Origin: Crambe crambe
Taxonomy: Eukaryota > Porifera > Demospongiae > Poecilosclerida > Crambeidae
Assembly (NCBI GenBank): GCA_963924555.1
Contig: OZ004593.1
Location: forward strand, 5,018,480 to 5,082,479
Direction of reading: 5' to 3'
DNA: 64,000 bases
The notes under the pieces: generated by a model
Seen by the model: the letters and a program-made list of their open reading frames with translations, nothing else
What the model was told of the DNA's origin: nothing
The model's database searches: none
Translations under genes and position numbers: made by a program
Part shown: piece after piece, positions 24,487-53,381 of the stretch
Layout of the letters: every line of letters begins with the position of its first letter
How positions within the stretch are numbered: position 1 is the first letter of the stretch

Positions 24487-26685
24487 ATGGCAACTCCTGA
24501 AATGATTCTGCCAACTAACAAGATCTTCCTTTTCACAGTTATGATGATAACTGTCTCATTAATTGTAGCAAAAGGTTTGCAACTTATAATTAGCTAAGAG
24601 TTAGAGTTAGTCTCCTTATCCTTCAGTAGCTTCTTCAGTATTTGTAGAGGACCCAGGACCAAGACATCTGATATCTCCTGTTGGATTACAATTCCAGCTC
24701 AACTGCTCAGTGGCTGTGGGACATTGTATAGCATGGGCTGTGTTTGTCACACCATTAAACAGAGTGTTACTAAGTGACAGTGGCTTTGAGGAGACCCTCC
24801 TCCGTCAACGTGGCATCACAGTGAGAGAATTGAGCAATCATTCATCTCAACTAGTTGTAAATCCCACAACAGTCCAACTAATAAACTACATAGAATGTAT
24901 AGATCTAGATCCTATCAGTGGAAGAAGATCTAGGGGCCAACGAGTGAATGTGACAATATATGGTACAAAACTTTGCACTATAATGCATGCAGAAATTGAA
25001 GATGAGTTCGAATTCACAGGTCCACCTTCACCTCCTACTGATGTTATGCTCACACCACTCACAGTTAACTCCCTCAGAGTTAGTTGGTCCTCTCCTCCCA
25101 CCCCTCCTGGAGTGACCCTGTACTTCAAACTGATGATATTCAACCTCAACAGTTCCAGTTCTGAACAAGTGCTGATGAGGACAGACATACAGACATTGCA
25201 CTACAATTTCACTGATAACAACATGACTAGACCATGTGATGTCTACAGCTTCCAAGTCACTGCAAGGAATGATGTTGGGATTGGTAATCCAAGTGAGATA
25301 ATCACTGGGAGTCTCCCCTCATTACCTGACATATCAACTGTGGAGGACTCACTCCAACACTCTCTGAGAGTTCAATTTAATGTGAATAGTGAACTAGTTG
25401 TAAAAGATGTTTTACCATTGCATGCATGCAGGATGCCACGACATGTCCAGCATACCCAGTGATGAAGTACACATTAGTGCTGGAGGACTCTGAAGGTAAT
25501 AGGAATGAGACGTCTCTGTCACTCACAGGCAATGGGTCAATCAGTGGGTTAATGGAGAACGTACGCTACACCTATTATATTGTGGCAATCAGTAGTATCG
25601 GAAATAGCACATCTTCTTCAAAGAGTATAAGTAAGTCAGTCTTATTGATTACATTAATTAACATATTGCATGTGAGCTTCTTTTCATAGTGATCACTGAT
25701 GTCACGACCGTGACCATTTGCCAAAGAAGTAACAATGACACTGGTACGTACCTTAAATGTCACATTTTTTGGCCATGGAAAAAGTGCTTTTTGCAGAGAA
25801 GTTAGTTTATAGCTAGCTGCATTGCACTTCCATGGTCCACAAGTCATCAAATGAAGGGTATAAGAAAGTTGATTTTCCACATAAAATATTGCTGGCTATC
25901 AATTTGAAACCCTCTGAGTAATCTCTGTGCACTGTTTTTAATTGATAACATGTTTGTTATCACAACAAAGTACATGTACAGTATGTAATAACAGATTTGA
26001 AACTGTAGATACAAGCAATATCATCCAGTGTTCTAGCTAGCTAGCCCTAGCTCTGGAATAATGATGACTGTATGATCATATCCAGCAGCTGCTGCAGTTC
26101 CTAGTGCTGGACTGGACACCACTGCCATTGTCTTCATTGGACTATCACTGGTCCTGCTGGTGTGTGTCCTTCCTATTGCAACCACCATTGCTTTCATCTG
26201 TGGAAGGAAAAATGGTTAGCTACTTCTGCCTATCAGCTAGCTATGTGAGCTTTTCTTTTGATTATGTTGTGATTAAATTTATTGGGCTATTCTGCTAGCT
26301 CTCAGTCACTGTATTACATATTATGGGCTAGTGGTATGTCTTATCATTTATTTTAAGGAATGGAACTCAATAATAAAGTACAAAGACATGAACTTGAAAG
26401 TGCCACAGAAATGGGCATACCTGTCAATGGGTAAGGTGTGAAAGAAGCACATTATATTAACCTGTACCTTTGTATTAAATCAGTGAGGAGGCAAGTACCA
26501 CTCAGGAAGCTCATTCTGGAACAGTTAAGGCAAGGCTTGGTGCCATATATCATGTGTATTGAGTTAATATGCTAGTCTCCTCTTCACGTTAGGATATTAT
26601 TAGTCTTGAGCGGAACCAGGCATATGAAATGGTGAAAGTCAATCTCCCTACTCCAGAGTATGCTGAGATTAGCTACGTGATTTAA
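24487..26685 (+). CDS. Ig+FN3 receptor II-1 with ITAM-like tail
   Basis: Nine exons with GT-AG borders: 24487-24574 (second ATG 24502), 24639-24962, 25020-25381, 25432-25630, 25690-25743, 26089-26214, 26358-26430, 26484-26523 and 26593-26685. From ATG 24502 the sum is 1344 nt (447 aa). Exon 1 is a signal peptide (KIFLFTVMMITVSLIVA). Exon 2 is an Ig domain (LNCSVAVGH, IECID). Exons 3-4 are two FN3-like domains (PSPPTDVMLTPLTVNSLRVSW, then YTLVLEDSE to YTYYIVAIS). Exon 6 is the TM helix (TAIVFIGLSLVLLVCVLPIA). Exons 7-9 are a tail ending in YEMV, 8 residues, YAEI, with a unique SYVI end. Nine codons near the start of the second FN3 are deleted in frame, as in II-4. A plasma-membrane recognition receptor is inferred. 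Confidence 0.82.
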
Positions 26686-27008
26686 AAAATGAGTTCAACA
26701 ATGCAAAACAACTTTTCTGTTATATAGTTATAATGCAATAGTTGTGTTTGTGCTGCCAAATCTAGGATTTTCGACTTTCACACAACCAGTCATATGGGAC
26801 AAACTCCCTAGCTAGTTTACACACACATGCAGCTGCTTATCAGTCTGTTTTGAGTTCCTTAACTGGATTATGCACATACATGCATGTACATAGCTATCCA
26901 TCTGTTTTTGAAAAGCCACACAAAATACATGCATGCATAAAACACTAAAGGATCATAATTTAGCTATAGCTCTCAGTTCAATGGATCAGATCTAAACGAG
27001 CAATAGCT

Positions 27009-27465
27009 AAAATGGTAATGAATACCAGTATCCTGAATTTAGTCATGATAGCTGTGTAGTGATACATGTGAGTGGAGATATTATGGATTATATTTCAGTA
27101 GCTTTTACTTTTTAATAGCTTATGTGACATTTATGTGTTTAGCTATCTCCATCTACATTTCGAGGAGTCACCTCCATTACTCTGAACTTGCCTGACTGCT
27201 CTTTGGACCGTGCTAATAGCTAATGCTGTCACTCTTTGTGATGGGACGAATGTGTTACTGGATGGTGTCTTAGGTCCACAACGTCCAAACCTCAACAACA
27301 CTGAAGATAAAAAGAAGTTTGTTGCATGGAATTCTAGTGGTGGTCCATATTGACCATACATATTCTTTGAAATGTGAGACCCATCTATACAGATAACACT
27401 CAGCTTAATGAGTGAGTCATCTCAGGAAGTGAGCAGATACATGAACAAAACGGTTAGTACTATCA
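27009..27465 (+). pseudogene. Fragment of an I' receptor (copy a)
   Basis: It starts with the remains of the signal exon (ATGGTAATGAATACCAGTAT, shortened) and continues at 27130 with the N-terminal domain exon (TTTCGAGGAGTCACCTCC). Small insertions (for example GCTA at about 27143 and again near 27220) and an in-frame TGA at about 27350 break it. It ends about 27465, before the Ig part. Confidence 0.8.
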
Positions 27466-28070
27466 GTGCAGCATGATTAGAGAGGGGTCCTTTTAATTAA
27501 TACACAGCAGAATTATGATTTTAGGAAACTGATTAGGGAGTCCATATAAACAACCTTTTCTTGTTGTTGGGAACTAGCTCAGCTGGTTAGTATACAAGAG
27601 ATCAGGGTATACCCATTCACAGACATTAAGCACCACTTTTCTTTGATCTTTGGACTAGGCAGACTTATATCCCTCACACTTGGGATAAACCAGCTATTAG
27701 GACAAGCAAGCTAATTTTAAAGATGCTGAAATCATAAATGTAAGCAAACACATACATGATGATCTATATTGATATGGTCCAGGCTATATAGCTTATAATT
27801 AAGCTTGTGGAGGGTGTAGCTATGTATGTAGGCTACTGACTACAGAGTTGGACCATAACATGCAGTTGTGATTATTAATGCTCAACATCAGCTTCTCCAA
27901 GTCCTCCCTCAGGCTCATTGTAGAGATACAGACCTACACTGTAACTATCTGTTTGGATTGCACACATTGACTGCTTACTTAATGCAACTGTGATCACATG
28001 TGGCTGGAATTGCTTACTATAACCCTTAAAATAGAACTTTGAACCCTGGACATAGCTAAAAACTCCTGAA
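27466..28070. other. Spacer between receptor copies
   Basis: It contains a short type I relic (about 27660-27740) and a block (about 27790-28065) that also precedes II-3 (35790-36060) and, in part, II-4, II-6 and II-7. That block is the shared 5-prime flank of the tandem II genes and would hold any common promoter. No specific site can be named. Confidence 0.5.
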
Positions 28071-30262
28071 ATGATTCTGCTAACTAACAAGATCTTCCTT
28101 TTCACAGTTATGATGATAACTGTCTCAGTAATTGTAGAAAAAGGTTTGCAGCTTATAATTAGCTAAGAGTTAGAGCTAGTCTCCTTCTGTAGCTTCCTCT
28201 GTATTTGTAGAGGATCCAGGACCAAGACATGTGATATCTCCTGTTGGATCACAATTCCAGCTCAACTGCTCAGTGGCTGTGGGACATGGTGTAGCATGGG
28301 CTGTGTTTATCACACCATTAAACAGAGAGTTACTAAGTGACAGTGGCTTAGATGAGACCCTCCTCCGTCAATGTGGCATCACAGTGCGAGAATTGAGCAA
28401 TGATCATTCATCTCAACTAGTTGTAAATCCCAACTAGTAAACTACATAGAATGTATAGATCTAGATATTATTAATGGAGTCAGAACTAGGGGTCAACGAG
28501 TGAATGTGACCATTTATGGTAGGTGCATGCTGTTCATAGACTTGGTTGATTATTAGTCATAATTCTTCACAGGTCCCCCCTCACCTCCTACTGATGTTAT
28601 GCTCACACCACTCACAGTCAACTCCCTCAGAGTTAGTTGGTCCTCTCCTCCCACCCCTCCTGGAGTGACCCTGTACTTCAACCTGACGACATTCAACCTC
28701 AACAGTTCCAGTTCTGAACCAGTGCTCATGAGGACAGACATACAGACACAGCACTACATCTTCACTGATAATGATAGGGCTAGACCATGTGATGTCTACA
28801 GCTTCCAAGTCACTGCAAGGAATGATGCTGGGATTGGTAATCCAAGTGAGATAATCACTGGGAGTCTTCCCTCATTACCTGACATATCAGCTGTGGAGGA
28901 CTCACTCCAACACTCTCTAGCTAAGGCTAATGGAAGTGTCACTCTGAGAGTTCAATTCAATGTGAATAGTGAATTACAAACTATGACTTACCAAGTTGTA
29001 AAAGATGTTTTACCTTTGCAGGAGGCTATGGCATGTCCAGAATACCCAGTGATGAAGTACACATTAGTGCTGGAAGACTCTGAAGGTGATAGGAATGAGA
29101 CATCTCTATCACTCACAGGCAATGTGTCAATCAGTGGGTTAATGGAGAACGTATGCTACACCTATTATATTGTGGCAGTAAACAGTGTTGGAAATAGCAC
29201 ATCTTCTTCAAGGAGTATAAGTAAGTCAGTCTTACTGAATACATTAACATGAGCTTCTTAAATTTTCATAGTGATCACTGATGTCACGACCATGACCATT
29301 TGCCAAAGAAGTAACAATGACACTGGTACGTACCAGATTTTTGGCCATGGAAAGTGCTTCAGAGAAGCTAGTTTATAGCTATATAGCTATGATATTAATT
29401 GGCATCTGCTTAGCTAATGGCTACACTTAAAAAAGTAGATTGCCACATAAGATGTTGCTAGCTATCAGTAATCTGTGCACTGCTTTTAATTGATCAATTA
29501 TCTACAACCATGGACATAGCTACACAGCAGCCTGTATATGTGGTTGTTGATAACAAATCTTGCTGATTTGAAGAGCATCATCAAAAACTATCAGTGTTGT
29601 ATCTATACATAGCTAGCTACTGATGACTGTATGGTGATCATATCTAGCAGCTGCTGCAGTTCCTAGTGCTGGACTGGACACCACTGCCATTGTCTTCATT
29701 GTACTATCACTGTGTGTGTCCTTCCTATTGCAACCACCATTGCTTACATCTGTGGAAAGAAAAATGGTTAGAACTAGGCTTGAACACATTGTGAGCTACT
29801 TCTGCCTATTAGCCAGCTATCCTTCTAGCTTTGTCTTTTGATCGTATGTTCATGATTTATTGGGCTATTCTGCTAGCTATAAGTCACTGTATTATTGTGG
29901 GCTAGTGGTATGTCTTATCATTTATTTTAAGGAATGGAACTCAATAATAAAGTACAAAGACATGAACTTGAACTTGAAAGTACCACAGAAATGGGCATAC
30001 CTGTTAATTGGTAAGGTGTGAAAAGAAGCATATTGGTTTCTGTATTAACTCATACCTTCATATTAAATCAGTGAGGAGGCAAGTATCACTCAGGACGCTC
30101 ATTCTGGAACAGTTAAGGCAAGGCTTGGTGCCATATCATGTGTATTGAGTTAATAATTATTGGCTAGTCTCCTCTTCATGTTAGGATACTATTAGTCTTG
30201 AGCGGAACCAGGCATATGAAATGGTGAAGGTCGATCTCCCTGCTCCTGAGTACGCCTCTTGA
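28071..30262 (+). pseudogene. Ig+FN3 receptor II-2, inactivated
   Basis: The same nine-exon plan as II-1. Lesions relative to intact copies: the exon 2 acceptor CCTCAG has become CCTCTG (the next AG, 8 bp on, keeps the frame); 10 bp are missing in the Ig exon near 28430, giving a stop at 28435-28437; about 10 bp are missing in the transmembrane exon near 29708; and the tail ends PEYAS instead of PEYAEI. FN3 exons 28573-28961 and 29022-29220 are still open. The first tail tyrosine (YEMV) remains. Confidence 0.85.
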
Positions 30263-30665
30263 CCAGAGAGAGGGTCATGAATATTAAGAGTGTACTAGCT
30301 GTTGTAGGTGGGTAGTTGTATACACTTAACAATGCAAGACAACTTTCAACTTATTAGCTAATTTTTAAAAATGCAGTTATGCAATAATAGTTGTGTTTGC
30401 ACTGCCAAATCTATAGGATTTTCAACTTTCAATATGTTGTTATGACACAACCATTCATATGGGACAAACTCCCTAGCTAGTTTACACACACATGCAGCTG
30501 CTTATCAGTCTGTTTTGAGTTCCTTAGCTGGATTATGCACACATGTAACTAGCTATGTTTATCTGTCTGTTATGAAAAGCTACACAAAATACATGCATAA
30601 AACCGCTTCACTAAAGGATCATAATTGAGCTATAGGTCTCAGTTTAGTGGCTCGAAAGTCTAAAA

Positions 30666-33034
30666 ATGGTAATGAATACCAGTATCCTGCTGATATTGAA
30701 TTTAGTCATGATGGTGAAGGGACAGCTGTGTAGTGATACATGTGAGTGGAGATATGGGTTATATTTAAGTAGCTAGCTATTCAGTAGCTTTTGTTGTTAA
30801 TTAACTTTTCTATAGCTTATGTAACATCTATGCGTTTATCTCCATCTACATTTCGAGGAGTCACCTCCATTACTCCGGACTTGCCTGGCTGCTCTTTGGA
30901 TCGTACCAATAATGCTGTCACTCTTTGTAATGGGACGAATGTGTTACTGGATGGTGTCTTAGGTCCGCAACGTCCAAACCTCAACAACGATGAAGATAAA
31001 AAGAAGTTTGTTGCATGGAATTCTAGTGGTGGTCCATACATATCCTTTGAAATGCAAGACCCATCTATACAGATAACAGCTATTGATCTCTACATACTGA
31101 ATTACCCAGGACAGAATATTAGCATGCCAAATATGCAGTTGTATCGAACCTCTAATCCCACAACCACAGATCCAAACATTCCCTTCACAGAGTTCATCGA
31201 TTTTTACTTGCTAGACAATGATGAGTTATCTAAAAATGATACTACTCGTAAGAAGGTCATTTTACGTCCTAGGACACCATTTTCCAGTGGAAGTATTCTC
31301 CTCAGATGGACATTCAGGGGACTATACAAAGTGCACTGGTTCCTCCTGAGTGAAATCAGGTTCTGCAAAGACTCACAGTCAGATTTCATTCCAGGTGTTG
31401 TGTTATTTCGAACCCCTCCATTAAAGATTAAGACACTTCACCCGAGTGCTGAAGATCTTGCCAGAGGGTCACTGGCATTAATATGCACAGTACCACTCCA
31501 AGGATCTTTCAACTGGCGGTGGAGAAAAGGCCAGGTAACTCTGCGAGATTCCAACAAATTCTCAATCCTCGGTGCAGATGGTACCAGAACTAGCAGACTG
31601 ATCATTCATCAGCTGGACTACATGGATGCTGAGAATTACTCTTGCGACGCTACGTATTCAATTCTGGTTTCATATCGAACAAGAAAATATGACGTGCAAT
31701 TTCCAAGTAAGTTTTGAATATAGGACTTAGCTAGTTCAATGATGTGCTAGCTATTCATCAAAATCCACCTATAATTCTCATTAGCTATCCTTCCTAATGG
31801 TAATGATGTAATGATGTGATAACAGTAGCTAACTGTTATGGTTTATACTAGCTTGAGCTAGTCGTACGTAACCTCTTGGCTTGTGAATGCTGACATAATA
31901 GAGAAACTGTTCACCTGGGTATCACACTTAACTATTTATCTCCTAGAGGAGTCAGAAAGATAGACTGTGAACTTTTAAGCTATTTTTTTAAAATGTGATT
32001 CGAAATTCATATGCTGCAGCGATAATAGAGGGAGTGCCAACATCTATAGGATTCTCAGGAGAGGAATCTGTGTCCCTGCCCTGCGAGGTCCATGGCTATA
32101 TAACTACCTTTAATCCTCCTGTTTGGACAAGCTATGGAGCAAGTTTCATCAACGTTTCTAAATATACTGTCACAGTCAGTGCTGGTTCTAATAAATCACT
32201 CATCTTCCCCAATGGTTTTGAAAAACGGTCTATCATTTCAACTCTGACGATTCATCAGCTCAGTGCTGAACATGAAGGCAGTTACACGTGTATGACAGAG
32301 GGTAACAGAACCGTGACTCAACTCCTGATCATGTCAGCATCAAATAGTACCAGCTCCTCTCCCTCTGCTTCCAGTACTATACCCAAAGGAAATGGTGAGA
32401 AGCTAGCTAGCTATAGCTAGAACCTTTATAGTTAGCACAGAAGTGTGGCCCAACTTTTAGAGTCTTGGTTGTAGAACTTGGTTAACTTTATACTAGCTAC
32501 AAATGACTAGCTAACTTGTTACTATTCTGGCCTTCTCCTATATACAGATCATGAACATTATCAGCTAGCTAAATGATCATTGTTTTGTTTCTTATAGCTA
32601 AGTCCTTTGATAGGAGGTTATTGTCTTCAATAATAATAATTGTGTTTGCTTGTAAATACTGCTCTACATGTGCAGGTGCATCTGAGAAGACTAGCTGCTC
32701 CCACTTCACAGAAGTGATCATATCATGTGCAGTCTGTTTGGCGATCCTTATAGTGTTTGCCACTCTACTAGTGACAGCTGCTATTGCTTGTGCTAAACGA
32801 AGAAGAGGCCACATGTCATCAGCTCCTCCCACTGAGTTACGAACAAGAGAGGAGACACATCATGAGATTTCTCGTAGGTCTTGGGGTCTTGATAACGAGA
32901 CTTATGTGGAGATGAATGGTGCATCTTGCATAAGGTTGGAGGACAATTATGAGAAAATGAACAGTGTGTCTTGTAGGAATGAAATATATGAAAAAATTGA
33001 AGATCTGAGCAAGAACTCATACTGCAATAACTGA
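30666..33034 (+). CDS. I' receptor: N-terminal domain, two Ig, TM, tail with YxxM motifs
   Basis: Four exons, 30666-30741, 30816-31706, 32020-32394 and 32676-33034, with phase-1 GT-AG introns. The sum is 1701 nt (566 aa). Exon 1 encodes a signal peptide (MNTSILLILNLVMMVKG); I took its donor as GTGAGT at 30742 because only that phase fits exon 2. Exon 2 holds a domain of about 195 aa (TFRGVTSITPDLPGC, AIDLYILNYPGQNI, ILLRWTF, FLLSEIRFC) and an Ig domain (ALICTV, FNWRW, ENYSCDA). Its beta-rich pattern recalls galactose-binding or discoidin-like folds, which is unproven. Exon 3 is a second Ig (SLPCEV, GSYTCMT). Exon 4 has a TM (VIISCAVCLAILIVFATLL), a basic stop-transfer KRRR, and tail tyrosines YVEM, YEKM, YEKI and YCNN. 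YxxM suggests PI3-kinase docking and YxN suggests Grb2 (family knowledge, not shown here). Confidence 0.82.
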
Positions 33035-36069: not shown

Positions 36070-38456
36070 ATGATTCTGCATACTAACAAGATCTTCCTTT
36101 TCACAGTTATGATGATAACTGTCTCAGTAATTGTAGCAAAAGGTTTGCAACTTATAATTAACTAAGAGTTAGAGCTAGTCTTCTTATCCTTCTGTAGCTT
36201 CCTCAGTATTTGTAGAGGACCCAGGACCAAGACATGTGATATCTCCTGTTGGATCACAATTCCAGCTCAACTGCTCAGTGGCTGTGGGACATCGTGTAAC
36301 ATGGGCAATATCAGTACCATGGTTTGGCAGAGAGTTGACTAGTGATCGTTCTGTGGATGAAGAACTCCTCTGTCAACGTGGTATCACAGTGAGAACCTTA
36401 GACCGTTCATCTCAACTAGTCGTTAATGTCACAGAAATCCAACTAGTAAACTACATAAAATGTGTAGCAGAAGACAGTGGTGGAACTGTAATTAGGGACC
36501 AACAAGTGAATGTGACCATTTATGGTAAGTGCATACTGTTCATAGACTTGGTTGATTGTTGATGCTTTCATACTCACAGGTCCCCCCTCACCTCCTACTG
36601 ATGTTATGTTCATACCAATCACAGTCAACTCCCTCAGAGTTAGTTGGTCCTCTCCTCCCACCCCTCCTGGAGTGACCCTGTACTTCAACCTGACAATATT
36701 CAACCTCAACAGTTCCAGTTCTGAACCAGTGCTGATGAGGACAGACATACAGACACAGCACTACATCTTCACTGATAACAACAGGGCTAGACCATGTGAT
36801 GTCTACAGCTTCCAAGTCACTGCAAGGAATGATGCTGGGATTAGTAATCCAAGTGAGATAATCACTGGGAGTCTCCCCTCGTTACCCGATATATCAGCTG
36901 TGGAGGACTCACTCCAGCACTCCCTAGCTAAGGCTAATGGGAGTGTCACTCTGAGAGTTCAATTTAATGTGAATAGTGAATTACAAACTATGACTTAGCC
37001 ACCATGTCTTTAAGATGTTTTATATACCTTTGCAGGAGGCCACGACATGTCCAGCATACCCAGTGATGAAGTACACATTAGTGCTGGAGGACTCTGAAGG
37101 TAATAGGAATGAGACATCTCTATCACTCGCTGGCAATGTGTCAATAAGTGGGTTAATGGAGAACGTACGCTACACCTATTATATTGTGGCAATAAACAGT
37201 ATCGGGAATAATACATCTTCTTCAAGGAGTATAAGTAAGTCAGTCTTACTGACTACATTAACATATTGCATGTGTCTCTGAGCTTCTTTTCATTGTGATC
37301 GATCACTGATGTCACAACCATGACCATTTGCCAAAGAAGTAACAATAACACTGGTATGTACCTTAAATATCAGATTTTTTGGCCATGAAAGTGCTTCAGA
37401 GAAGTTAGTTTATAGCTAGCTAGATAGCTGATGGTAGATTGCCACATAAGATGTTGCTAGCTATAAATTTGAAAACCTCTTGAGTAATCTGTCCACTGCT
37501 TTTAATTGATCAGTTACACAGCAGTGTTCTATCTAGAAATTATAATTTGGGGTAGAAGTGTGTGTTCTGATGACAAATTAGTCCATTTTCATCAAGAGGC
37601 AAGCTAGTTAAGCTAGAGTATTTGGGGTAGAAGCTTCTACTACACCTACCCCAGTGAAACCTGCACAGTAGCCTGTACGTGCATGGTTGTTGATAACAAA
37701 TCTTGCTGATTTCAAACTGCACAAGGAACATCATCAAAAACTATCAGTGTTGTATCTATACATAGCTAGCTACTGATGACTGTATGATCAATATTATCCA
37801 GTAGCTGCTGCAGTTCCTAGTGCTGGACTGGACACCACTGCCATTGTCTTTATTGTATTATCACTGGTCCTGCTGGTGTGTGTCCTTCCTATTGCAACCA
37901 CCATTGCTTACATCTGTGGAAAGAAAAATGGTTAGGACTAGGCTTGACCACATTGTGAGCTACTTCTGCCTATTGGCTAGCTATGTGCTTTCCAGCTTTG
38001 TCTTTTGATTGTATGTTCATGATTTATTGGGCCATTCTGATCTGCTAGCTATCAGTCACTGTATTATTGTGGCCTAGTGGTATGTCTTGTCATTTATTTT
38101 AAGGAATGCAACTCAATAAAGTACAAAGACATGAACTTGAACTTGAAAGTACCACGGAAATGGACATACCTGTCAATGGGTAAGGTGTGAAAAGAAGTAC
38201 ATTGGTTTCTGTATTAACCTGTACCTTCGTATTAAATCAGTGAGTAGGCAAGTACCACTCAGGAAGCTCGTGCTGGAACAGTTATTAAGGCAAGGCTTGG
38301 TGCCATATCATGTGTATTGAGCTAGTCTCCTCTTCATATTAGGATATTATTAGTCTTGAGCGGAACCAGGCATATGAAATGGTGAAGGTCAATCTCCCTG
38401 CTCCAGAGTACGCTGAGATTGCAACCTATCATCTCACAGTCAGTAATACCTCTTGA
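36070..38456 (+). CDS. Ig+FN3 receptor II-3, tail-truncated by a stop in exon 8
   Basis: Exons 36070-36142, 36207-36524, 36580-36968, 37036-37234, 37805-37930, 38104-38179 and 38241 onward are open and in phase. The short exon 5 (about 37300-37350) has lost its AG acceptor, but skipping it keeps the frame. In exon 8 the usual GAGGAG reads GAGTAG, so translation stops at 38245-38247, before both tail tyrosines. The last exon (38343-38456) still encodes YEMV and YAEI downstream of the stop. Its Ig domain is the most divergent of the seven (VTWAISVPWFGRELTSDRS, IKCVAEDSGG). The product would be a membrane receptor without signalling motifs: a possible decoy, or an early pseudogene. Confidence 0.7.
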
Positions 38457-38742
38457 CCAGAGGGTGTCATGAATATTAAGAGTGTACTACTAATAATTAA
38501 GAGTAGCTGTTGTACTTAACAATGCATTATTAGCTAATTTTAAAAAATGAATGCTTTCCTGTTGCAATAGTAATTGTGTTTGCGCTGCCAAATCTACTTT
38601 CAATATGTTGTTATGACACAACCAGTCATATGGGACAAACTCCCTAGCTAGTTTACACACTACAGCTGCTTACCAGTCTATTTTGAGTTCCTCAGCTGGC
38701 TTATACACACATTCTAAATGAAAGTCTATAGCAATAGCTAAA

Positions 38743-39175
38743 ATGGTAATGAATACCAGTATCCTGCTGATATTGAATTTAGTCATGATGGTGGAGGGAC
38801 AGCTGTGTAGTGATACATGTGAGTGGAGATATGGGTTATAGCTATTTAAGTAGCTATTCAGTAGCTTTTGTTGTTAATTAACTTTTCTATAGCTTATGTG
38901 ATCTCTATGTGTTTATCTCCATCTACACTTCGAGGAGTCACCTCCATTACTCCGGACTTGCCTGACTGCTCTTTGGATTGTGCCAATAATGCTGTCACTC
39001 TTTGTAATGGGACAAATGTCAAGTGTTACTGGAGGTCCGCAACGTCCAAACCTCAACAACACTGAAGATGAAAAGAAGTTTGTTGCATGGAATTCTAGTG
39101 GTGGTCCATACAAATTTGCGAGACCCATCTATACAGATAACAGCTATTAACCTCTACATATTGAATAAAAAGCAC
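38743..39175 (+). pseudogene. Fragment of an I' receptor (copy c)
   Basis: An intact-looking signal exon (from 38743, ATGGTAATGAATACC) with its GTGAGT donor, then the start of the N-terminal domain exon at about 38893. The frame is lost near 39020, where part of the DGVLGPQ segment is deleted, and homology ends at about 39165 after AACAGCTATTAACCTCTACA. Confidence 0.8.
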
Positions 39176-41656: not shown

Positions 41657-41948
41657 ACTTGTCATCTCACAGTACTAATCTTGAACAGAGGGTCATGAGC
41701 CTTAATTGGTTACATTAAGCAATTTAACAGCTGTGCACTCAATTAAAAACTTTACTATAATAAAAATCACTCATTGCATACATAGCTAGCTATAGCTAAT
41801 ATAACTTTCAATTGTTATTATGTGCTAGCAAATAGCCCTTACCGACACACGAACATGTATTTGTTTTTCATCTGTTTTACATACACACCGTGGTTCTCAT
41901 ATGAGATTAGATAATCATAATTAGCCAACTGAACTCCTGAGAAAGGAA

Positions 41949-44106
41949 ATGATTCTGCTAACTAACAAGATCTTCCTTTTCACAGTTATGATGATAACTG
42001 TCTCAGTAATTGTAGCAAAAGGTTTGCAGCTTATAGTTAGCTAAGAGTTAGAGTTAGTCTTCTTATCCTTCTGTAGCTTCCTCAGTATTTGTAGAAGACC
42101 CAGGACCAAGACATGTGATATCTCCTGTTGGATCACAATTCAAGCTCAACTGCTCAGTGGCTGTGGGACATATGGTGCAGCATGGGCTGTGTTTGTCGCG
42201 CCATTCAACAGAGAGTTTCTAAGTGACGGTGGCTTTGATGAGACCATCCTCTGTCAACGTGGCATCACAGTGAGAGAATTGAGCAACGATCATTCATCTC
42301 AACTAGCTAGTTGTAAATGCCACGACAGTCCAACTAGTAAACTACATAGAATGTATAGATCTAGATCCTGTCAGTGGATGCAGATCTAGGGGCCAACGAG
42401 TGAATGTGACAATTTATGGTACACTATAATGCATGCAGAAATTGAAGATCAGTTTGAATTCACAGGTCCACTGTCACCTACAGTCAACTCCCTCAGAGTT
42501 AGTTGGTCCTCTCCTCCCACCCCTCCTGGAGTGACCCTGTACTTCAACCTGACCTCAACAGTTCCAGTTCTGAACCAGTGCTGATGAGGATAGACATGCA
42601 GACACAGCACTACATCTTCACTGATTACAATAGGGCTAGACCATGTGATGTCTACAGCTTCCAAGTCACTGCAAGGAATGATGCTGGGATTGGTAATCCA
42701 AGTGAGATAATCATTGGAAGTCTCCCCTCATTACCTGACATATCAGCTGTGGAGGACTCACTCCAACACTCTCTAGCTAAGGCTAATGGGAGTGTCACTC
42801 TGAGAGTTCAATTCAATGTGAATAGTGAATTACAAACTATGACTTACCAAGTTGTAAAAGATGTTTTACCTTTGCAGGAGGCTATGGCATGTCCAGAATA
42901 CCCAGTGATGAAGTACACATTAGTGCTGGAGGACTCTGAAGGTGATAGGAATGAGACATCTCTATCACTCACAGGCAATGTGTCAATCAGTGGGTTAATG
43001 GAGAATGTATGCTACACCTATTATATTGTGGCAATCAACATTATCGGAAATAGCACATCTTCTTCAAGAAGTATAAGTGAGTCGATCAGTCTTACTAAAT
43101 ACATTAACATGAGCTTCTTAAATTTTCATAGTGATCACTGATGTCATGACCATGACCATTTGCCAAAGAAGTAACAATGACACTGAAATATCAGATTTTT
43201 GGCCATGGAAAGTGCTTCAGAGAAGTTAGTTTATAACTAGCTATGATATTAATTGGCACCTGCTTAGCTAATGGCAACACTTAAAAAAGTAGATTGCCAC
43301 ATAAGATGTTGCTAGCTCTCAGTAATCTGTGCACTGCTTTTAATTGATCAGTTATCACAACCACATGCACAGCAGCCTGTATATGTGGTTGTTGATAACA
43401 AATCTTGCTGATTTAAAGAGCATCATCAAAAACTATCAGTGTTGTATCTATACATAACTAGCTACTGATGACTGTATGATCATATTCAGCAGCTGCTGCA
43501 GTTCCTAGTGCTGGACTGGACACCACTGCCATTGTCTTCATTGCACTATCACTGATCCTGCTGGTGTGTGTCCTTCCTATTGCAACCACCATTGCTTACA
43601 TCTGTGGAAGGAAAAATGGTTAGGACTAGCATTGTGAGCTATTAGCTAGCTAGCTATGTTTTTCTTTTGATCGTATGTTCATGATTTATTGGGCTATTCT
43701 GCTAGCTATAAGTCACTGTATTATTGTGGGCTAGTGGTATGTCTTGTCATTTATTTTAAGGGATGGAACTCAATAATAAAGTACAAAGATATGAACTTGA
43801 ACTTAAAAATACCACAGAAATGGGCATACCTGTTAATGGGTAAGGTGTGAAAAGAAGCACATTGGTTTCTGTATTAACTCATACCTTCATATTAAATCAG
43901 TGAGGAGGCAAGTATCACTCAGGAAGCTCATTCTGGAACAGTTAAGGCAAGGCTTGGTGCCATATCATGTGTATTGAGTTCTAGTCTCCTCTTCATGTTA
44001 GGATATTATTAGTCTTGAGCGGAACCAGGCATATGAAATGGTGAAGGTCAATCTCCCTGTTCCAGAGTACACTGAGATTGCTACGACTATGACCCATATC
44101 AATTGA
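41949..44106 (+). pseudogene. Ig+FN3 receptor II-5, broken extracellular part
   Basis: The signal exon (41949-42021) is fine. The Ig exon has a 2-bp insertion near 42172 and a 4-bp CTAG duplication near 42308. They restore the frame overall, but a TAA lies between them. The first FN3 exon lacks about 27 bp (DVMLTP region) and about 10 bp near 42552. Downstream FN3-2, TM and tail exons (tail YEMV-KVNLPVPE-YTEI, stop 44104-44106) are undamaged, so the copy may be a recent loss or a conversion donor. It follows II-4 directly without an intervening I' copy. Confidence 0.85.
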
Positions 44107-44555: not shown

Positions 44556-45360
44556 AAAATGGTAATGAATACTAGTATCCTGCTGATATTGAATTTAGTC
44601 ATGACATTGCGGACCTAAGACACCATCCAGTAATATGTTCGTCCCATTACAAATACAAAGAGTGACAGCATTATTGGCACGATCCAAAGAGCAGTCAGGC
44701 AAGTCCGGAGTAATGGAGGTAACTCCTCGAAATGTAGATGGAGATAAGCGCATAGATGTCACATAAGTTATAGAAAAGTTAATTAACAACAAAAGCAACC
44801 CACATCTCCACTCATATGTATCACTACACCACCATCCAAACCTCAGCAACGATGAAGATAAAAAGAAGTTCGTTGTGGAATTCTAGTAGTGGCCTTTGAA
44901 ATGCGAGACCCATCTATACAGATAACAGCTATTTATCTCTACATAAATTACCCAGGACAGAATATTAGCATGCCAAAAATATGCAGTTATATCGAACTTC
45001 TGATCCAAACATTCCCTTCACAGAGTGCATAGATTTTTACTTGCTGAACAATGCGAGTTATCTAAAGATGTCATTTTATGTCCTAGGACATCATTTCTAG
45101 TGGAAGTGTTCCTACTGAATGAAATTAGGTTCTGCAAAGACTCGCAGTCAGATTTCATTCCAGGTGTTGTGTTATTTCGAATCCCTTCATTAAAGATCCA
45201 GACACTTCACCCGAGTGCTTGCCAGAGGGTCACTGGCATTAATATATACACACTCCAAGGATCTTTCAACTGGCAGTGGAGAAAAGGCCAGGCAACTCTG
45301 CGTGATTCCAACAAATTCTCAGTCCTCGGTGAAGATGGGACAATAGCAGACTGATTATTC
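44556..45360 (+). pseudogene. I' receptor relic with internal inversion (copy d)
   Basis: The signal exon begins at 44559. At about 44604 the sequence switches to the reverse strand: 44605-44835 is the inverted segment from the signal-exon donor through the start of the N-terminal domain exon, so it reads MRLSPSTFRGVTSI on the minus strand. Forward homology resumes at about 44836 (CCAAACCTCAGCAAC). The remainder carries many deletions and stops and ends within the first Ig exon at about 45355. Confidence 0.85.
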
Positions 45361-45629: not shown

Positions 45630-47832
45630 ATGGCAGCTCCTGAAATGATTCTGCAAACTAACAAGATCTTCCTTTTCACAGTTATGATGATAACTGTCTC
45701 ATTAATTGCAGCAAAAGGTTTGCAGCTTATAATTAGCTTAAGAGTTAGAGTTAGTCTTCTTATCCTTCTGTAGCTTCCTCAGTATTTGTAGAGGACCCAG
45801 GACCAAGACATGTGATATCTCCTGTTAGATCACAATTCCAGCTCAATTGCTCAGTGGCTGTGGGACATGGTGTAGCATGGGCTGTGTTTATCACACCATT
45901 AAACAGAGAGTTACTAAGTGACAGTGGCTTTGATGAGACCCTCCTCCATCAACATGGCATCACAGTGAGAGAATTGAGCAATGATCATTCATCTCAACTA
46001 GTTGTAAATCCCACAACAGTCCAACTAGTAAACTACATAGAATGTATAGATGCAGATCCTGTCAGTGGAAGCAAATCTAGGGGCCAACGAGTGAATGTGA
46101 CAATTTATGGTACAAAACTTTGCACTATAACGCATGCAGAAATTGAAGATGAGTTTCAATTCACAGGTCCACCTTCATTTCCTACTGATGTTATGCTCAC
46201 ACCACTGACAGTCAACTCCCTCAGAGTTAGTTGGTCCTCTCCTCCCACCCCTCCTGGAGTGATCTTGTACTTCAACCTGACAATATTCAATCTCAACATT
46301 TCCACAGTGCTGATGAGGACAGACATAGAGACAAAGCACTACATCATCACTGATAATAATAGGGCTAGACCATGTGATGTCTACAGCTTCCAAATCACTG
46401 CAAGGAATGATGCTGGAATTGGTAATTCAAGTGAGAGAATCACTGGGAGTCTCCCCTCATTACCTGACATATCAGCTGTGGAGGACTCACTCCAACATTT
46501 CCTAGTAAAAGATGTAGAACTCAATGTAGCTAATTTGACTGTTTCTTTTGATGTAAGTTAATGATAAACATGTGGCTAGTTAAATTAAATATTTAATACC
46601 ACTATAGGAAGCTGATGCATGTCCTGATTTCCCTGTGACAGACTACACTTTAATACTGGAGGATTCTGAAAGATATCGGACTGAAATACCACTCTCATAT
46701 GAGACATTCATGGACAGTATTATGATGAACTGGTCTTTAGTGGAGAACAAACACTACACATATCACATTGTGGTAACCAATGTGATGGGAAGTAGTACAT
46801 CTTCTCTGAGAAGAATAAGTAAGTATGGAAATAATTTTTCATATTGTATATTATTGCCATTTGACCTCTTATCATAGTGACCACAGATGTTCAAGATATA
46901 ATTATATCTCATATAAGAGGGAGCAACTACTTCATCCAGTGCAGCTACATCACTGGTAGTGATGCTCGTGGGTGTGAATACACCTTGGTGAGTAAGGTGA
47001 AGGGGGTGGAAAATATCACAGGCAACATAGAGAGGACCAACTCTGAAGGAGTGATGGTAGAGGTTCGTACTGCAAGTTGCTACTCTGGTGAAGTGTTGGC
47101 CAAGGACTGGGAGAGAGACAATACCACTGGTATTCTACCAGTCAGAAGAAATATCACATTAGTTGGCCATGGAAAGTGCTTCACACAGACATGTTAGTTT
47201 ATAGGTGCATAGACGCATTACTTCACTTGCTGTAGTGGTTTATCCAATATTAAATGGTAATTGTAAACATAATCAGTGTATCATAGTGACTTTTATTCGG
47301 GTGATATTATGTTAGTATAATCTGCACATATTTGCTGCAGTTGCTACTATTCAGACAGAGTTGAGTGCCACTTCCATTGCCTTCATTGTGTTATCACTAG
47401 TACTTTTATTCTGTGCGGTTCCTGTTGCATTTGCCTGTGGCTATCTACAAGGTTATCTGTATATTCCTTTGAAAATTTTATTATCATTTCTGCATATTAA
47501 ATCATACTCATAGGATCAAGAAGAAAAACTGCACAAAAACATAGTGTTACTGAAATGGCTACACCTGTCGATGAATTGAAAGTGTGAGTCTTGCACAAAT
47601 ACCTATTATGTAATAATAATTTAACTGTTAGGTATCCAGTGAGGATGTTGATACTCACAGGCAGGAAAATGAAGTAAGCATTGTGGTGAATGATGCAATA
47701 TTTAGCTATGGCATTGCATATCAATTGTAGGGGATTAATCTTGAGCAGAACCAAGCCTATGAAGCAGTGAAGATCAGTAGCTCAAAAGTCCCTGCTCCAG
47801 AGTATGCTGAAATCACAACTCTTGTCAGTTGA
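45630..47832 (+). CDS. Ig+FN3 receptor II-6 with extra extracellular domain
   Basis: Complete: exons 45630-45717 (second ATG 45645), 45783-46109, 46167-46552, 46608-46818, 46878-47192, 47341-47451, 47514-47583, 47640-47673 and 47731-47832. From ATG 45645 this is 1629 nt (542 aa). Exons 1-3 (signal, Ig, first FN3) are near-identical to the other copies. From the last codons of exon 3 onward the protein is strongly diverged. Exon 5 is 315 nt and encodes a full third domain (TTDVQDIIISHIRG, YFIQCSYITG, VRTASCYSGE), of which the other copies keep only 45-54 nt. The TM differs (SIAFIVLSLVLLFCAVPVAF). The tail keeps YEAV and YAEI with 11 residues between them. This copy best preserves the ancestral layout. 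Confidence 0.83.
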
Positions 47833-48785
47833 ACAACACTTGTAGTTATAAGATAGATATGTACACAGTAACTTGCAGTTTATACAACTTGACGTGTAAA
47901 TAGCTAATGTGTGTGTAGCTATACAGCTATGACTATTATTCATCATGGGATTGAAGTTGACCAAATAAGATCATCCGATGTGATGTAGCTAATAGAAAGA
48001 GCTCAAAAATGACATGCTAGGTTCAAAGGTGCTTTTTTTCAATTAAAGTGTTTACTATTTTGCTTCATGGGGTAGAATAGTATGCTGTATATTGGACAAT
48101 TTCATGGAACCATCTATAGAAACAAGAAGAAACCAGATACATATAAGCATACACCATCAAGCAAGCAACTAGCTGATATTGTAATGCTGTCATATAGTGA
48201 TCTTTGTCAAGCATAACTGCATGGTCCAGATGCCAGGCCTATCACCTTTGAATCTGCTACAAGTCCCACTGTGAGTTGAAATGATCTTCTGTCTCTTATT
48301 CACACTCACTGTAAAGAAGAAAGCGTTTACTGCAACTATTTTGTCCCTACACACACTTTTAATGTGTGTATTGGGACAATTTAGACACATGCAGTTTTGC
48401 TTTTACAGTGCATATACATAGCTATGTAGGGAATTCCCCAATAATTATTAGAAACCTACAGAACCTTAGAAACCATCCCATTAGCAAATCATTTTAGCAC
48501 AACTTTCTGGTAAATTAAGTTAAGGAGCCCCTGCAGATCTTGGATTGGACTGTTCTTTAAAGATACCAGCTTTCACACAGCTACATAACTGTCACCAAAC
48601 TTCACTTGCAACTCAACTGTTAATTCAAGACTATGTTGGCTAACATCTTCCTCACAGTTGAAAAAGAAACTTATGTGAATGACCGGGTCAAGCCCATATG
48701 CACAAAAGAATGTGTAGGAGGAGTAGGAAGTGGCTCTTTGTTGATCCATAGCTAAATCAAATGATACTAAATTTTATACACAAAT
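47833..48785. other. Unique intergenic sequence, no gene seen
   Basis: This stretch has no match to the tandem repeats around it. Short open frames on the minus strand (47782-47964, 48190-48390) lack any domain or splice context. Confidence 0.5.
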
Positions 48786-49894
48786 TTAGTCATGATGGTG
48801 AAGGGACAGCTGTGTAGTGATACATGTGAGTGGAGATATTTAAGTAGCTATTCAGTAGAATTAACTTTTCTATAGCTTATGTGACATCTATGCGTTTATC
48901 TCCATCTACATTTCGAGGAGTCACCTCCATTACTCCAGACTTGCCTGACTGCTCTTTGGATTGTGCCAATATTGCTGTCACTCTTTGTAATGGGACGAAC
49001 GTGTTATTGGATGGTGTCTTAGTGCTGAAGATCTTGCCAGAGGGTCACTGGCATTAATATGCACAGTATCACTCCAAGGATCTTTTAACTGGCGGTGGAG
49101 AAAAGGCCAAGTAACTCTGCGAAATTCTCAATCCTCGGTGCAGATGGAACCAGAACTAGTAGACTGATCATTCATCAGCTGGACTACATGGCTGAGAATT
49201 ACTCTTGCGATGCTACATATTCAATTCTGGTTTCATATCAAACAAGAAAATATGATGTGCAATTTCCAAGTAAGTTTTGATATAGCTAGTTCAATAATGT
49301 GCTAGCTAAATTAATCAAAATCTACCTATCCTAATGGTAATGATGTAAGGATGTGATTTGTTACTATACAAGTTAAACCTCTTGGTTTATGAATGACTAA
49401 AATAGAGAAACTGTTCACCTGGTATCACACTCAGCTATTTATCCCTAGAGCAGCCAGAAAGATAGACTGAACTTCTATAACTATTAATTTGAAATTCTTA
49501 TTATTTTAATATGCTGCAGCGATAATAGAGAGAGTGCCAATATCTATAGGATTCTCAGGAGAGGAATCTGTGTCCCTGCCCTGCGAGGTCCATGGCTATA
49601 TAACTACCTTTAATCCTCCTGTTTGGACAAGCTATGGAGCGAGTTTCATCAACGTTTCTAAATATGCTATCATTGTCAGTGCTGGTTCTAATAAATCACT
49701 CATCTTCCCCAATGGCTTTGAAAAACAGTCTATCATTTCAACTCTGACGATTCATCAGCTCAGTGCTGAACATGAAGGCAGCTACACGTGCATGACAGAG
49801 GGTAACAGAACTGTGACTCAACTCCTGATCATGTCAGCATCAAATAGTACCAGCTCCTTTCCCTCTACTTCCAGTACTATGCCCAAAGGAAATG
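48786..49894 (+). pseudogene. I' receptor relic (copy e)
   Basis: Part of the signal exon (48786-48835), then the N-terminal domain exon from 48876. About 465 bp are deleted at 49020, joining DGVL to the start of the first Ig domain out of frame. Further small deletions follow at about 49124 and 49190. The second Ig exon (about 49521-49894, donor GTGAGA) is open and about 95 percent identical in protein to the intact copy. No TM exon follows. Confidence 0.85.
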
Positions 49895-50029
49895 GTGAGA
49901 AGCTAGCTAGCTATAGCTAGAAGTTAAGAACCTTTATAGTTAGCACATGAAATTTGATCTTCGAAATGGGCAGATACTAAATAGCTACTTATATCCCTCA
50001 CACTTGGGTATTACATACCTCAGTGGAGA

Positions 50030-50330
50030 TGAACTAGGACAAGCAAGCTATAGTTTTAAACTTCAAATATACATATGAAGCTACTTATTCCTTTCCTGTC
50101 TCCTTTTGATGATTTAAGTATAATTAATGGGGCTACCAGATACCGGTTTCTTGGGAGAAGGCTCAGTTGAACTCAGATGTGACTATTATGCCATTACCTT
50201 TAACCCTCCTATGTGGATCGAGCGGTGATGATAGGGCAGAATTAATCAACACTTCAAAAAATACATGATCACCCCAGTGATATCCAAGGTGGACACAATG
50301 CTCGATCCTGTGCTGCCATTACTCCATCAC
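50030..50330. pseudogene. Type I receptor relic with a local inversion
   Basis: Forward fragments match the first and second Ig exons of 12688-14686 (GGCTCAGTTGAACTCAGATG, CCTATGTGGA, TCAACACTTCAAAA). From about 50284 the sequence GTGGACACAATGCT... TGTGCTGCCAT is the reverse complement of the same exon (13942-13970 of the intact gene). Confidence 0.65.
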
Positions 50331-50867
50331 TGCATGGTGGTGATCATGGTGGTGATCATGTTGTTGTTGTTTTTAAGTGCATCACTGCTCCACCACATTG
50401 GGGGGTTAGCTAGAGGTAATGGCATGTAGCGGCCAGAGAGTTAGTTCCATAATTGTTATTCTAGATCAGAGATGAATAAATAAATAAGTGTGATAATAAG
50501 GGATTGCATATCATGGTACAATCATGTCATATCTTGCATAGTCAGCTCATTCCTGGCAACACTCACTGCAAATCAACTAAAATACATGTACTGAGTGTGT
50601 ATTGTGTTGTTTCAACTAAATAAATATTGATTTGTAATGGTATATTATGCATGCATGGCTCATTGTTGAGTTACAGACCTACACTGTATAGTTTTCTGTT
50701 TGGATTGCAATTATTAAATACACACTGACTACTTACTTAATGCAACTGTGATCACATGTGGGTGGAATTGTTGACTAATCCTTATACGTAGCTACTATGG
50801 AACTTTGAACCCTGGACATGTGATGTAGCTATTGGGACAAAAATTAATAGTGTGCAGTTTTGTAGTG
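50331..50867. other. Spacer and shared 5-prime flank of II-7
   Basis: 50640-50867 matches the flank of II-6 (45430-45629), including GTTTGGATTGCA and GTGATCACATGTGGGTGGAA. 50520-50580 contains a short TM-exon relic of the type I receptor (CATATCTTGCATAGTCAGCTC). Confidence 0.5.
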
Positions 50868-53381
50868 ATGGCAACTCCTGAAATGATTCTGCTAACTAAC
50901 AAAATCTTCCTTTTCATAGTTATGATGATAACTGTCTCATTAATTGCAGCAAAAGGTTTGCAGCTTATAATTAGCTTAAGAGTTAGAGTTAGTCTTCTTA
51001 TCCTTCTGTAGCTTCCTCAGTATTTGTAGAGGACCCAGGACCAAGATATGTGATATCTCCTGTTAGATCACAATTCCAGCTCAACTGCTCAGTGGCTGTG
51101 GGACATGGTGTAGCATGGGCTGTATTTGTCACACCATTAAACAGAGAGTTACTAACTGATAGTTTTGATGAGACCCTCCTCCGTCAACGTGGCATCATAG
51201 TGAGAGAATTGAGCAATGATCATTCATCTCAACTAGTTGTAAATCCCACAACAGTCCAACTAGTAAACTACATAGAATGTATAGATACAGATCCTGTCAA
51301 TGGAAGCAGATCTAGGGGCCAACGAGTGAATGTGACAATTTATGGTATAAAACTTTGCACAATAATGCATGCAGAAATTGAAGATGATTTTGAATTCACA
51401 GGTCCACCTTCACCTCCTACTGATGTTATGCTCACACCAATCACAGTCAACTCCCTCAGAGTTAGTTGGTCTTCTCCTCCCATCCCTCCTGGAGTGACCC
51501 TGTACTTCAACCTGACGATATTCAACCTCAACAGTTCCAGTTCTGAACCAGTGCTGATGAGGACAGACATACAAACACAACACTACATCTTCACTGATGG
51601 CAATAGGGCTAGACCATGTGATGTCTACAGCTTCCAAGTCACTGCAAGGAATGATGCTGGGATGGGTAATCCAAGTGAGATAATCACTGGGAGTCTCCCC
51701 TCACTACCTGACATGTCAGCTGTGGAGGACTCACTCCAACACTCTCTAGCTAAGGCTGATGGGAGTGTCACTATGAGAGTTCAATTCAATGTGAACAAAC
51801 TATGACTTAGCTACCATGTCTTAAAAGATGTTTTACCTTTGCAGGAGGCCACGGCATGTCCAGCATACCCAGTGATGAAGTACACATTAGTGCTGGAGGA
51901 CTCTGAAGGTAATAGGAATGAGACGTCTCTATCACTCACAGGCAATGTGTTAATAAATGGGTTAATGGAGAACGTACGCTACACCTATTATATTGTGGCA
52001 GTAAACAGTATCGGAAATAACACATCTTCTTCAAGGAGTACGTCAGTCTTACTGAATACATTAACATAATGCATGTGAGCTTCTTAAATTTTCTTAGTGA
52101 TCACGACCATGACCATTTGCCAAAGAAGTAACACTGACACTGGTATGTACCTTACCTTTCAGATTATTTAGCCATGGAAAGTGCTTTTTTTGCAGAGAAG
52201 TTAGTTTATAGCTAGCTACTCATAATTATTATTGGCACCTGCTGAACTAGCTAATAGCTACACTTAAAAGTAGATTGCCATATAAGATGTTGCTAGCTAT
52301 CAATTTGAAAACCTCTTGAGTAATCTGTCCACTGCTTTTAATTGATCGGTTATCACAACCACATACGCAGCAGTGTTCTATCTAGAAGTTATAATTTGGG
52401 GTAAAAGTGTGTGTCCTGACAAATAGTCCATTTTCATCAAGAGGCAAGCTAGTTAAATAACTAGTAAGCCATTATTATGTGGACAAGCTGCACGTCATCA
52501 TTTCATCACTGGTAGCTAGCTAGGCATGTAGTGTTAATTAAGTGCTACTCTCAATATTTTAAGACTGCAGGCAAGTTTTGCTAGAGTGCTTGGGGTAGAA
52601 GCTTCTACCCCACCTACCCCAGTGAAACCTACACAGCAGCCTGTATGTGGTTGTTGATAACAAATCTTGCTGATTTGAATGAGCATCATCAAAAACTATC
52701 AGTGTTGTATCTATACATAACTAGCTACTGATGACTGTATGATCATATCCAGCAGCTGCTGCAGTTCCTAGTGCTGGACTGGACACCACTTCCATTGTCT
52801 TCATTGCACTATCACTGGTCCTGCTGGTGTGTGTCCTTCCTATTGCAACAACCATTGCTTACATCTGTGGAAGGAAAAATGGTTAGGACTAGGCTTGACC
52901 ACATTGTGAGCTACTTCTGCCTATTAGCCAGCTATCTTTCTAGCTTTATCTTTTGATTGTATGTTCATATTTAATTTTATTGTGCTATTCTGCTAGTCAC
53001 TGTATTATTGTGGGCTAGTGGTATGTCTTGTCATTTATTTTAAGGAATAGAACTCAATAAAGTACAAAGACATGAACTTGAACTTAAAAGTACCACAGAA
53101 ATGGGCATACCTGTCAATGGGTAAGGTGTGAAAAGAAGCACATTGGTTTCTGTATTAACTGGTACCTTCGTATTAAATCAGTGAGGAGGCAAGTACCACT
53201 CAGGAAGCTCATGGTGGAACAGTTAAGGCAAGGCTTGGTGCCATATCATGTGTATTGAGTTCTAGTCTCCTCTTCATGTTAGGATATTATTAGTCTTGAG
53301 CGGAACCAGGCATATGAAATGGTGAAGGTCAATCTCCCTGCTCCAGAGTATGCTGAGATTGCTACAACCAATGTCAATTGA
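50868..53381 (+). CDS. Ig+FN3 receptor II-7 with ITAM-like tail
   Basis: Complete: exons 50868-50955 (second ATG 50883), 51021-51344, 51402-51790, 51845-52037, 52098-52142, 52756-52881, 53045-53120, 53182-53221 and 53283-53381. From ATG 50883 this is 1365 nt (454 aa). Signal peptide, Ig, two FN3-like domains, short linker, TM and a tail ending YEMV-KVNLPAPE-YAEI then ATTNVN. A 6-bp deletion removed the usual exon 4 donor, but a GTACGT at 52038 in the same phase can replace it. Exon 5 has lost 9 nt in frame. These compensated lesions suggest the copy has been kept functional. Confidence 0.83.

Follow-up and report, generated by a model that had tools for sequence, protein, structure and literature searches.

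A tandem cluster of Ig-like/FN3 receptor genes with birth-and-death evolution in the sponge Crambe crambe, a candidate recognition locus

Layout of the receptor array

We analysed a stretch of 64,000 nucleotides from the sponge Crambe crambe (assembly GCA_963924555.1, contig OZ004593.1, positions 5,018,480 to 5,082,479 of the forward strand), hereafter the window, which carries an array of predicted receptor genes at 24487-53381 (numbered from the first base of the window). A sequence-only reading had proposed seven head-to-tail copies of one receptor type, here called type II. Self-blastn and multiple alignment bore this out, revealing seven copies in one orientation whose pieces share 79-92% DNA identity, with sequence of a second type, type I, among them. 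The array begins at the ATG of II-1 (24487) and ends at the stop codon of II-7 (53381). All exon chains given here are predictions from genomic sequence. Receptor gene introns are mostly short, with GT/AG ends, and the type II exons encode, in order, a signal peptide, an immunoglobulin (Ig)-like domain, a fibronectin type III (FN3) domain, a second FN3-like domain, a transmembrane (TM) segment and a tail spread over three exons, with one additional exon in II-6. The members of the array, with protein lengths in amino acids (aa), are as follows.

24487-26685 (+): II-1, open gene of 8 exons, 438 aa (gene model); exons 24487-24574, 24630-24962, 25020-25381, 25432-25630, 26086-26214, 26358-26430, 26484-26523 and 26593-26685 (+); protein with signal peptide, Ig-like, FN3, second FN3-like, TM and a tail with YEMV-x8-YAEI
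27047-27434 (+): type I remnant downstream of II-1, with a broken frame and pieces of the N-terminal domain
28056-30255 (+): II-2, broken; gaps of 10 bases disrupt the frame in the Ig exon and in the TM exon, and the last exon has lost its end
30666-33034 (+): I', intact type I gene, 562 aa; exons 30666-30729, 30816-31706, 32020-32394 and 32676-33034; protein with signal peptide, N-terminal domain of ~197 aa, two Ig domains, TM and a tail with YVEM, YEKM and YEKI
36070-38247 (+): II-3, open, 399 aa, tail-less, with a divergent tract over the Ig core and intron 2
38740-39166 (+): type I remnant downstream of II-3, comprising the signal peptide and a portion of the N-terminal domain
39430-41656 (+): II-4, open gene of 8 exons, 437 aa (gene model)
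41927-44106 (+): II-5, broken (gaps +2, +4, -10), adjoining II-4
44559-45342 (+): type I remnant downstream of II-5, locally inverted at 44607-44768 (minus strand)
45630-47832 (+): II-6, open gene of 9 exons, 550 aa; front like the other copies, 3' part of an older lineage
48783-49947 (+): type I remnant behind II-6, with an N-terminal piece, pieces of Ig1, and Ig2
50868-53381 (+): II-7, open gene of 8 exons, 448 aa; exon 4 donor AGGA/GTACGT

The claim that five genes of the cluster rebuild was upheld: II-1, II-4, II-6, II-7 and I' give complete spliced frames with GT/AG introns. The copy described as tail-less proved to be II-3, which remains open until a stop in its seventh exon, at 38247, so that the tyrosine tail is lost, and the copies described as broken are II-2 and II-5. 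That types II and I alternate holds in part, as type I sequence lies behind five of the seven type II copies (II-1, II-2, II-3, II-5 and II-6) and only I' is whole; between II-4 and II-5 no type I piece was found.

A single self-blastn alignment (3169 columns, 78.9%) joins II-1 and its type I piece to II-2 and the start of I'. Because this alignment runs through both genes, the copied unit contained both a type II and a type I gene. The other type I pieces share 77-91% DNA identity with I', within the range seen among the type II copies. Types II and I share a history as one unit, which does not prove joint action of their two products. We also considered two haplotypes assembled as tandem copies, and rejected this as the main cause because the type II pieces differ by 8-21% and the copies lie in order in one N-free window.

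The type II copies differ in their 5' ends and splice sites. II-2, II-3, II-4, II-6 and II-7 have a common 5' flank that comes as close as 0-80 bases to the start, varying with the pair compared. The II-1 flank matches other copies in pieces only, ending at least 169 bases before the ATG, and the 600-base flank of II-5 gave no match to other copies at E 1e-5. The first ATG is absent in II-2 and II-3, where the start would fall five codons downstream, and II-7 keeps an open frame only if splicing uses a donor that lies a few bases upstream of the one in the other copies. As a separate observation, intron 2 (51345-51401, +, in II-7) could be retained or spliced in II-1, II-6 and II-7 with the frame unbroken, because it is 57 bases long and frame-open in these copies; the II-4 frame hits a stop there.

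Exchange between copies and frame keeping

Comparison of II-6 with II-7 revealed 95.5% identity in the signal exon, 100% in intron 1 and 96.4% in the Ig exon, followed by a drop within exon 3, with 57% in intron 3 and 41-47% in the later introns (41% in intron 7). At the break, located at II-7 position 51742, the mismatch rate rises from 2.9% to 31.0%, and none of 200 shuffles gave a break as strong. II-6 additionally encodes an extra membrane-proximal domain, domain X (46878-47192, +; ~104 aa, several Cys), which gave no Pfam or PDB match. In the six other type II copies domain X is mostly deleted, and blastn recovered its 3' end beside the deletion in 6/6 copies and its 5' end in 4/6. Because the outer ends of the domain survive around the deletion, the short copies share a loss, and II-6 is a chimera, with a newer front on an older, longer receptor.

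A second mosaic lies in II-3. Within a tract at II-7 positions 51121-51396, mismatch was 27-29%, compared to 3-3.5% on both sides (none of 200 shuffles reached this in either of two tests). The tract spans the Ig core, starting near the conserved Trp and running through the end of the exon, together with intron 2. Synonymous divergence (dS) of the Ig exon was 0.26-0.36 in the six pairs that include II-3 and 0.04-0.14 in the other fifteen. Because synonymous change is raised there too, the block is imported old sequence. We rejected rapid positive selection as the only explanation for the unusual Ig exon of II-3, since the synonymous sites and intron 2 have diverged as well. II-2 also carries the intron part of the tract, having 11 of the 13 sites specific to II-3 in one 40-base bin, and trees built from five blocks grouped the copies differently from block to block. 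Birth-and-death evolution with local exchange, as suggested earlier from the sequence, is thus well supported by the broken copies, the tail-less copy and the sharp mosaic tracts in II-3 and II-6.

When II-1, II-3 and II-4 were compared with II-7, 17 of 18 exon gaps were multiples of three, a share that fell to 23 of 84 for gaps in introns (Fisher P 1.2e-7). The sole exception, a +2 gap at the end of exon 3 in II-4, lies outside the modelled exon. In the broken copies II-2 and II-5, 6 of 13 exon gaps keep the frame; II-6 stands outside the count because its 3' half has diverged. Since exon gaps keep the frame, the type II gene models gain support, and the lines leading to II-1, II-3 and II-4 were under selection for most of their history.

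The ratio of nonsynonymous to synonymous differences per site (pN/pS), pooled over copies, was 0.42 and 0.35 in the two FN3 exons and 0.73 in the TM segment plus tail, with II-6 entering the pooled values for the Ig exon only. In 20 of 21 copy pairs, conservation of the Ig exon did not exceed that of intron 1, and by permutation the excess of the Ig exon over FN3 had a P value of 0.019 with II-3 included (II-1, II-3, II-4 and II-7). These values show that the Ig domain is under relaxed or mixed pressure and do not prove diversifying selection.

Domains, tails and neighbouring elements

The FN3 assignment in type II is solid, with PF00041 matched above the cut-off by the Pfam scan over two stretches in II-1 (E 3e-13) and one stretch in II-6 (E 3.1e-10). 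In the N-terminal domain, Cys26, Trp36 and Cys90 are invariant in all five copies compared, and the label 'Ig' is based on this Cys-Trp-Cys pattern together with the strand pattern of a low-confidence model. A Foldseek search returned mostly antibody entries among the matches listed, with TM-scores of up to 0.41, and was not used as evidence.

An immunoreceptor tyrosine-based inhibitory motif (ITIM) follows the pattern [ILVS]xYxx[ILV], and an activating motif (ITAM) the pattern Yxx[IL]-x6-12-Yxx[IL]. We scored tail motifs against shuffled tails. The type II tails carry YEMV-x8-YAEI in II-1, II-4 and II-7 and YEAV-x11-YAEI in II-6, where the tail has diverged with both tyrosines kept, while II-3 lacks tail tyrosines, and its TM segment contains no charged residue. 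A relaxed ITAM-like pattern, with V allowed, is present in II-1, II-4, II-6 and II-7 (shuffle P 0.004-0.016). A strict ITAM was found in 0 of 7 tails and a strict ITIM in one of seven: the tails of I' and of all five open type II genes have none, and in that of the type III gene described below VMYEVI fits the pattern (shuffle P 0.073) and YATV occurs as well. The I' tail has two YxxM sites (shuffle P 0.003) in addition to YEKI. Following the shuffle tests, claims of a strict ITAM, and of an ITIM in types I and II, were dropped.

Upstream of the array lie two copies of a third type:

12688-14686 (+): type III, intact, 539 aa; exons 12688-12748, 12778-13677, 13742-14110 and 14397-14686
3157-4284 (+): second type III copy, truncated inside the second Ig exon; 91.6% DNA identity to 12668-13826

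The sequence-only reading had placed a third related type at 12688-14686, and this is indeed an intact four-exon gene, a relative of type I with the same layout and 52% identity to I' in exon 2. Pfam Ig_3 was matched in I' (1e-10) and in type III (4.2e-12). Against PDB profiles, type III residues 229-421 matched 8ovq (E 3.8e-16) and residues 235-420 matched 8qpx (6.6e-16), with the next best at 3.3e-5, and the I' Ig pair matched the same entries at 4e-17 and 3.9e-16, with the next best at 8.8e-9. For types I and III alike, a single stretch of alignment with chains 8ovq_A ('Cell recognition molecule, long form') and 8qpx_A ('Receptor tyrosine kinase (Fragment)') covers the two Ig domains. We take the organism of these entries to be the sponge Geodia cydonium, for which a literature search on the entry codes gave no confirmation among the 15 papers listed of 34. 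By themselves these matches make a sponge source of the receptor genes likely. An Ig domain is present in a Geodia cydonium receptor tyrosine kinase according to the accessible parts of two articles (PMC12018476; PMC11000336). The Pfam scan found no kinase profile in I' or type III, whose tails are short (81 aa and 59 aa, respectively). Judged by these matches, types I and III belong with the 8ovq/8qpx Ig pair, minus the kinase.

The N-terminal domain of ~197 aa in types I and III gave no Pfam match, and its best PDB match, for I', was at E 0.46. No relative was found for the I' exon 2 protein in viral or prokaryote contig collections, or for the II-7 Ig-FN3 protein in the viral one, collections that have no sponge relevance.

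Further observations concern the surroundings of these genes. Both type III copies fall within an upstream segmental duplication (429-4283 against 6319-13826), recovered as the pieces 735-1503/10469-11238, 2585-2938/11283-11813 and 3157-4283/12668-13826. More second-Ig fragments of types I/III lie at 24208-24333, before II-1, and at 50130-50216, before II-7 (both +). Behind the truncated type III copy, 4360-4480 (+) may resemble the end of a Death domain, with no match in Pfam. Other elements in the window are listed below.

8970-10450 (-): DDE_1 transposase with Psq helix-turn-helix
15883-18372 (-): DDE_1 transposase with Psq helix-turn-helix, open frame of 829 aa; weak, below-cut-off RING/PHD matches at the end
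20404-20733 (+): kinase-like fragment, PK_Tyr_Ser-Thr at E 3e-4 (below the curated cut-off), with a TC repeat at the end
23012-23889 (-): two overlapping frames for a cysteine-rich, secreted-looking protein adjoining the array; no Pfam match for either frame and no PDB match for the one tried
62032-63304 (-): transposase pieces with a TNP-like RNase H domain (PF21787, E 1.7e-9)

The DDE_1 transposases are presumably pogo/Tigger-like, and a search of the viral and prokaryote contig collections gave no relative of the transposase. ARAGORN found no tRNA or tmRNA genes in the window.

Interpretation and comparison with known systems

We propose that the array comprises variant single-pass recognition or adhesion receptors which arose from a duplicated II-I unit and whose binding domain has been renewed by recombination, a reading to which we assign a probability of roughly one half. 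At the level of the DNA itself, duplication of the unit, frame keeping, breakage of some copies, loss of most of the membrane-proximal exon in the six short type II copies and exchange of Ig tracts are established, and a role for the array in recognition or adhesion signalling is likely, with allorecognition as one conceivable option. An ancestral unit of two genes, type II followed by type I, was duplicated in tandem, with type II contributing a YxxV-x8-YxxI tail and type I the ~197-aa domain, two Ig domains of the SAM/RTK (receptor tyrosine kinase) sort and a YxxM tail. According to our proposal, the outward-facing Ig-like domain would bind a ligand on another cell or a microbe, and a separate kinase would phosphorylate the tail tyrosines, leading to recruitment of SH2 proteins. 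Exchange of Ig-exon tracts between divergent copies would then renew the binding domain. Growth by duplication together with such swapping in the outward-facing domain is frequent among recognition gene families.

Several results weigh against this interpretation. Units with both genes whole number 0 of 7, and the whole I' sits behind the broken II-2. The pooled pN/pS of the Ig exon is 0.76, not clearly above 1, and the excess of that exon over FN3 loses significance when II-3 is left out (P 0.164 for II-1, II-4 and II-7; P 0.080 for II-1, II-2, II-4, II-5 and II-7). The earlier description of type II as 'Ig+FN3' stands for its FN3 half. For the Ig-like domain, none of five copies matched a Pfam Ig family at E up to 10 (two of the five had one non-Ig Pfam match each, E 0.13), there were 0 PDB profile matches at E up to 10, and hhalign gave no link between the type II Ig alignment and the exon 2 profile of types I/III. 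In addition, two AlphaFold2 models were poor, with a mean confidence score (pLDDT) of 50.4 and 42.6.

Alternatively, adhesion or developmental receptors may simply have expanded in this lineage, with unequal crossing over making and removing copies, little selection on binding, and no immune or self/non-self role, a reading we regard as possible if somewhat doubtful. It fits the pooled Ig value below 1 and the constrained FN3 exons, and four haplosclerid sponges have many Ig and fibronectin domains generally, as stated in the accessible part of one study (PMC4704026). In a grafting transcriptome of Amphimedon, the available main text reports no significant enrichment of adhesion or aggregation-factor genes, and the words immunoglobulin, fibronectin and receptor never occur in it (PMC5450542). 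Such an expansion sits less easily with the imported II-3 tract being centred on the Ig core and with an Ig exon that is hardly ever more conserved than intron 1. A largely decaying array, in which most copies are dead or promoterless and only one or two work (for example I' and II-4 or II-6), would account for the broken II-2 and II-5, the truncated II-3, the breakage of every in-cluster type I copy except I', the lack in II-1 and II-5 of the proximal 5' flank of the others, and the dependence of II-7 on a shifted donor. We consider it unlikely, however, given the frame keeping of exon gaps in II-1, II-3 and II-4.

In paired KIR/LILR receptors, the same ectodomain is carried either on a long form with an ITIM or on a short form with a charged TM residue. 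Clustered, near-identical ectodomains, the tail-less II-3 and the strict ITIM pattern of type III would agree with paired receptors of this vertebrate style, having activating and inhibitory forms on the same ectodomain. The type II genes, however, have no opposing tails, the II-3 TM segment offers no charged residue for an adaptor, and the strict ITIM is missing from I' and the open type II genes, with the type III match at the shuffle value given above, leaving this the least credible of the explanations, and a very improbable one.

We likewise regard as improbable a more specific form of our proposal, in which the array would be a sponge recognition complex of two receptor types copied as a unit, one related to the SAM/RTK molecules that have long been suspects in sponges, acting as contact receptors whose specificity is renewed by swapping the Ig core exon with the stalk, TM segment and tail kept, and serving in allorecognition or symbiont recognition. 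If true, the array would become the first Alr- or fuhc-type locus in sponges, built on Ig receptors rather than aggregation factors. Sponges tell self from non-self, as the accessible text of the grafting study states (PMC5450542). In the part of the sponge recognition literature within reach, the subjects are aggregation factors and the Ig domains of a Geodia receptor kinase and adhesion molecule, and the receptor side looks open. A compact locus uniting SAM/RTK-like Ig receptors, a second receptor family and exchange of the Ig core would offer a concrete place to look, and would bear on whether clustered Ig recognition receptors are older than the split between sponges and other animals or have arisen repeatedly.

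The sequence-only reading had seen hallmarks of the KIR and LILR clusters here. These resemble the array as tandem clusters of the immunoglobulin superfamily (IgSF) with pseudogenes, exchange between copies and a tail-less form, and these features stood. Overall the likeness is weak: the complete type II tails are of one type, a lost tail is the only variant and no strict ITIM occurs in I' or type II. The array further differs in lacking opposing tails and a charged TM residue in II-3 and in having FN3 stalks, and no sequence tie to KIR/LILR was found. With the sponge SAM/RTK Ig pair, types I and III share a tandem Ig pair that can be aligned over both domains. They differ in that I' and type III have no kinase, a feature of the RTK form, and carry the extra N-terminal domain; for type II, no tie to the 8ovq/8qpx chains was found.

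Among other invertebrates, the Hydractinia Alr complex, by its description in the accessible text, likewise consists of clustered genes for single-pass IgSF receptors, along with many probable pseudogenes; a distinguishing point is that allelic control of fusion has been shown there (PMC11067881). In Botryllus, the FF and FcoR genes are encoded as adjacent pairs, an arrangement of two families that the array here may share, and the tails contain Y-x-x-[ILV] cores in both systems (PMC12065747, accessible part). FcoR has V-Ig, sushi and C2-Ig domains (same part of PMC12065747), whereas no sushi profile was found in II-1, II-6, I' or type III, and here type I sequence lies behind five of seven type II copies, with no unit whole. 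This comparison is worth testing, because FF and FcoR are described as encoded in pairs. Among the matches listed, titles and the starts of abstracts named no sponge Ig/FN3 receptor cluster, with subscription literature mostly out of reach. Closer parallels to this array than KIR and LILR come from the invertebrate IgSF clusters (Hydractinia Alr and Botryllus FF/FcoR) and from the sponge SAM/RTK Ig pair.

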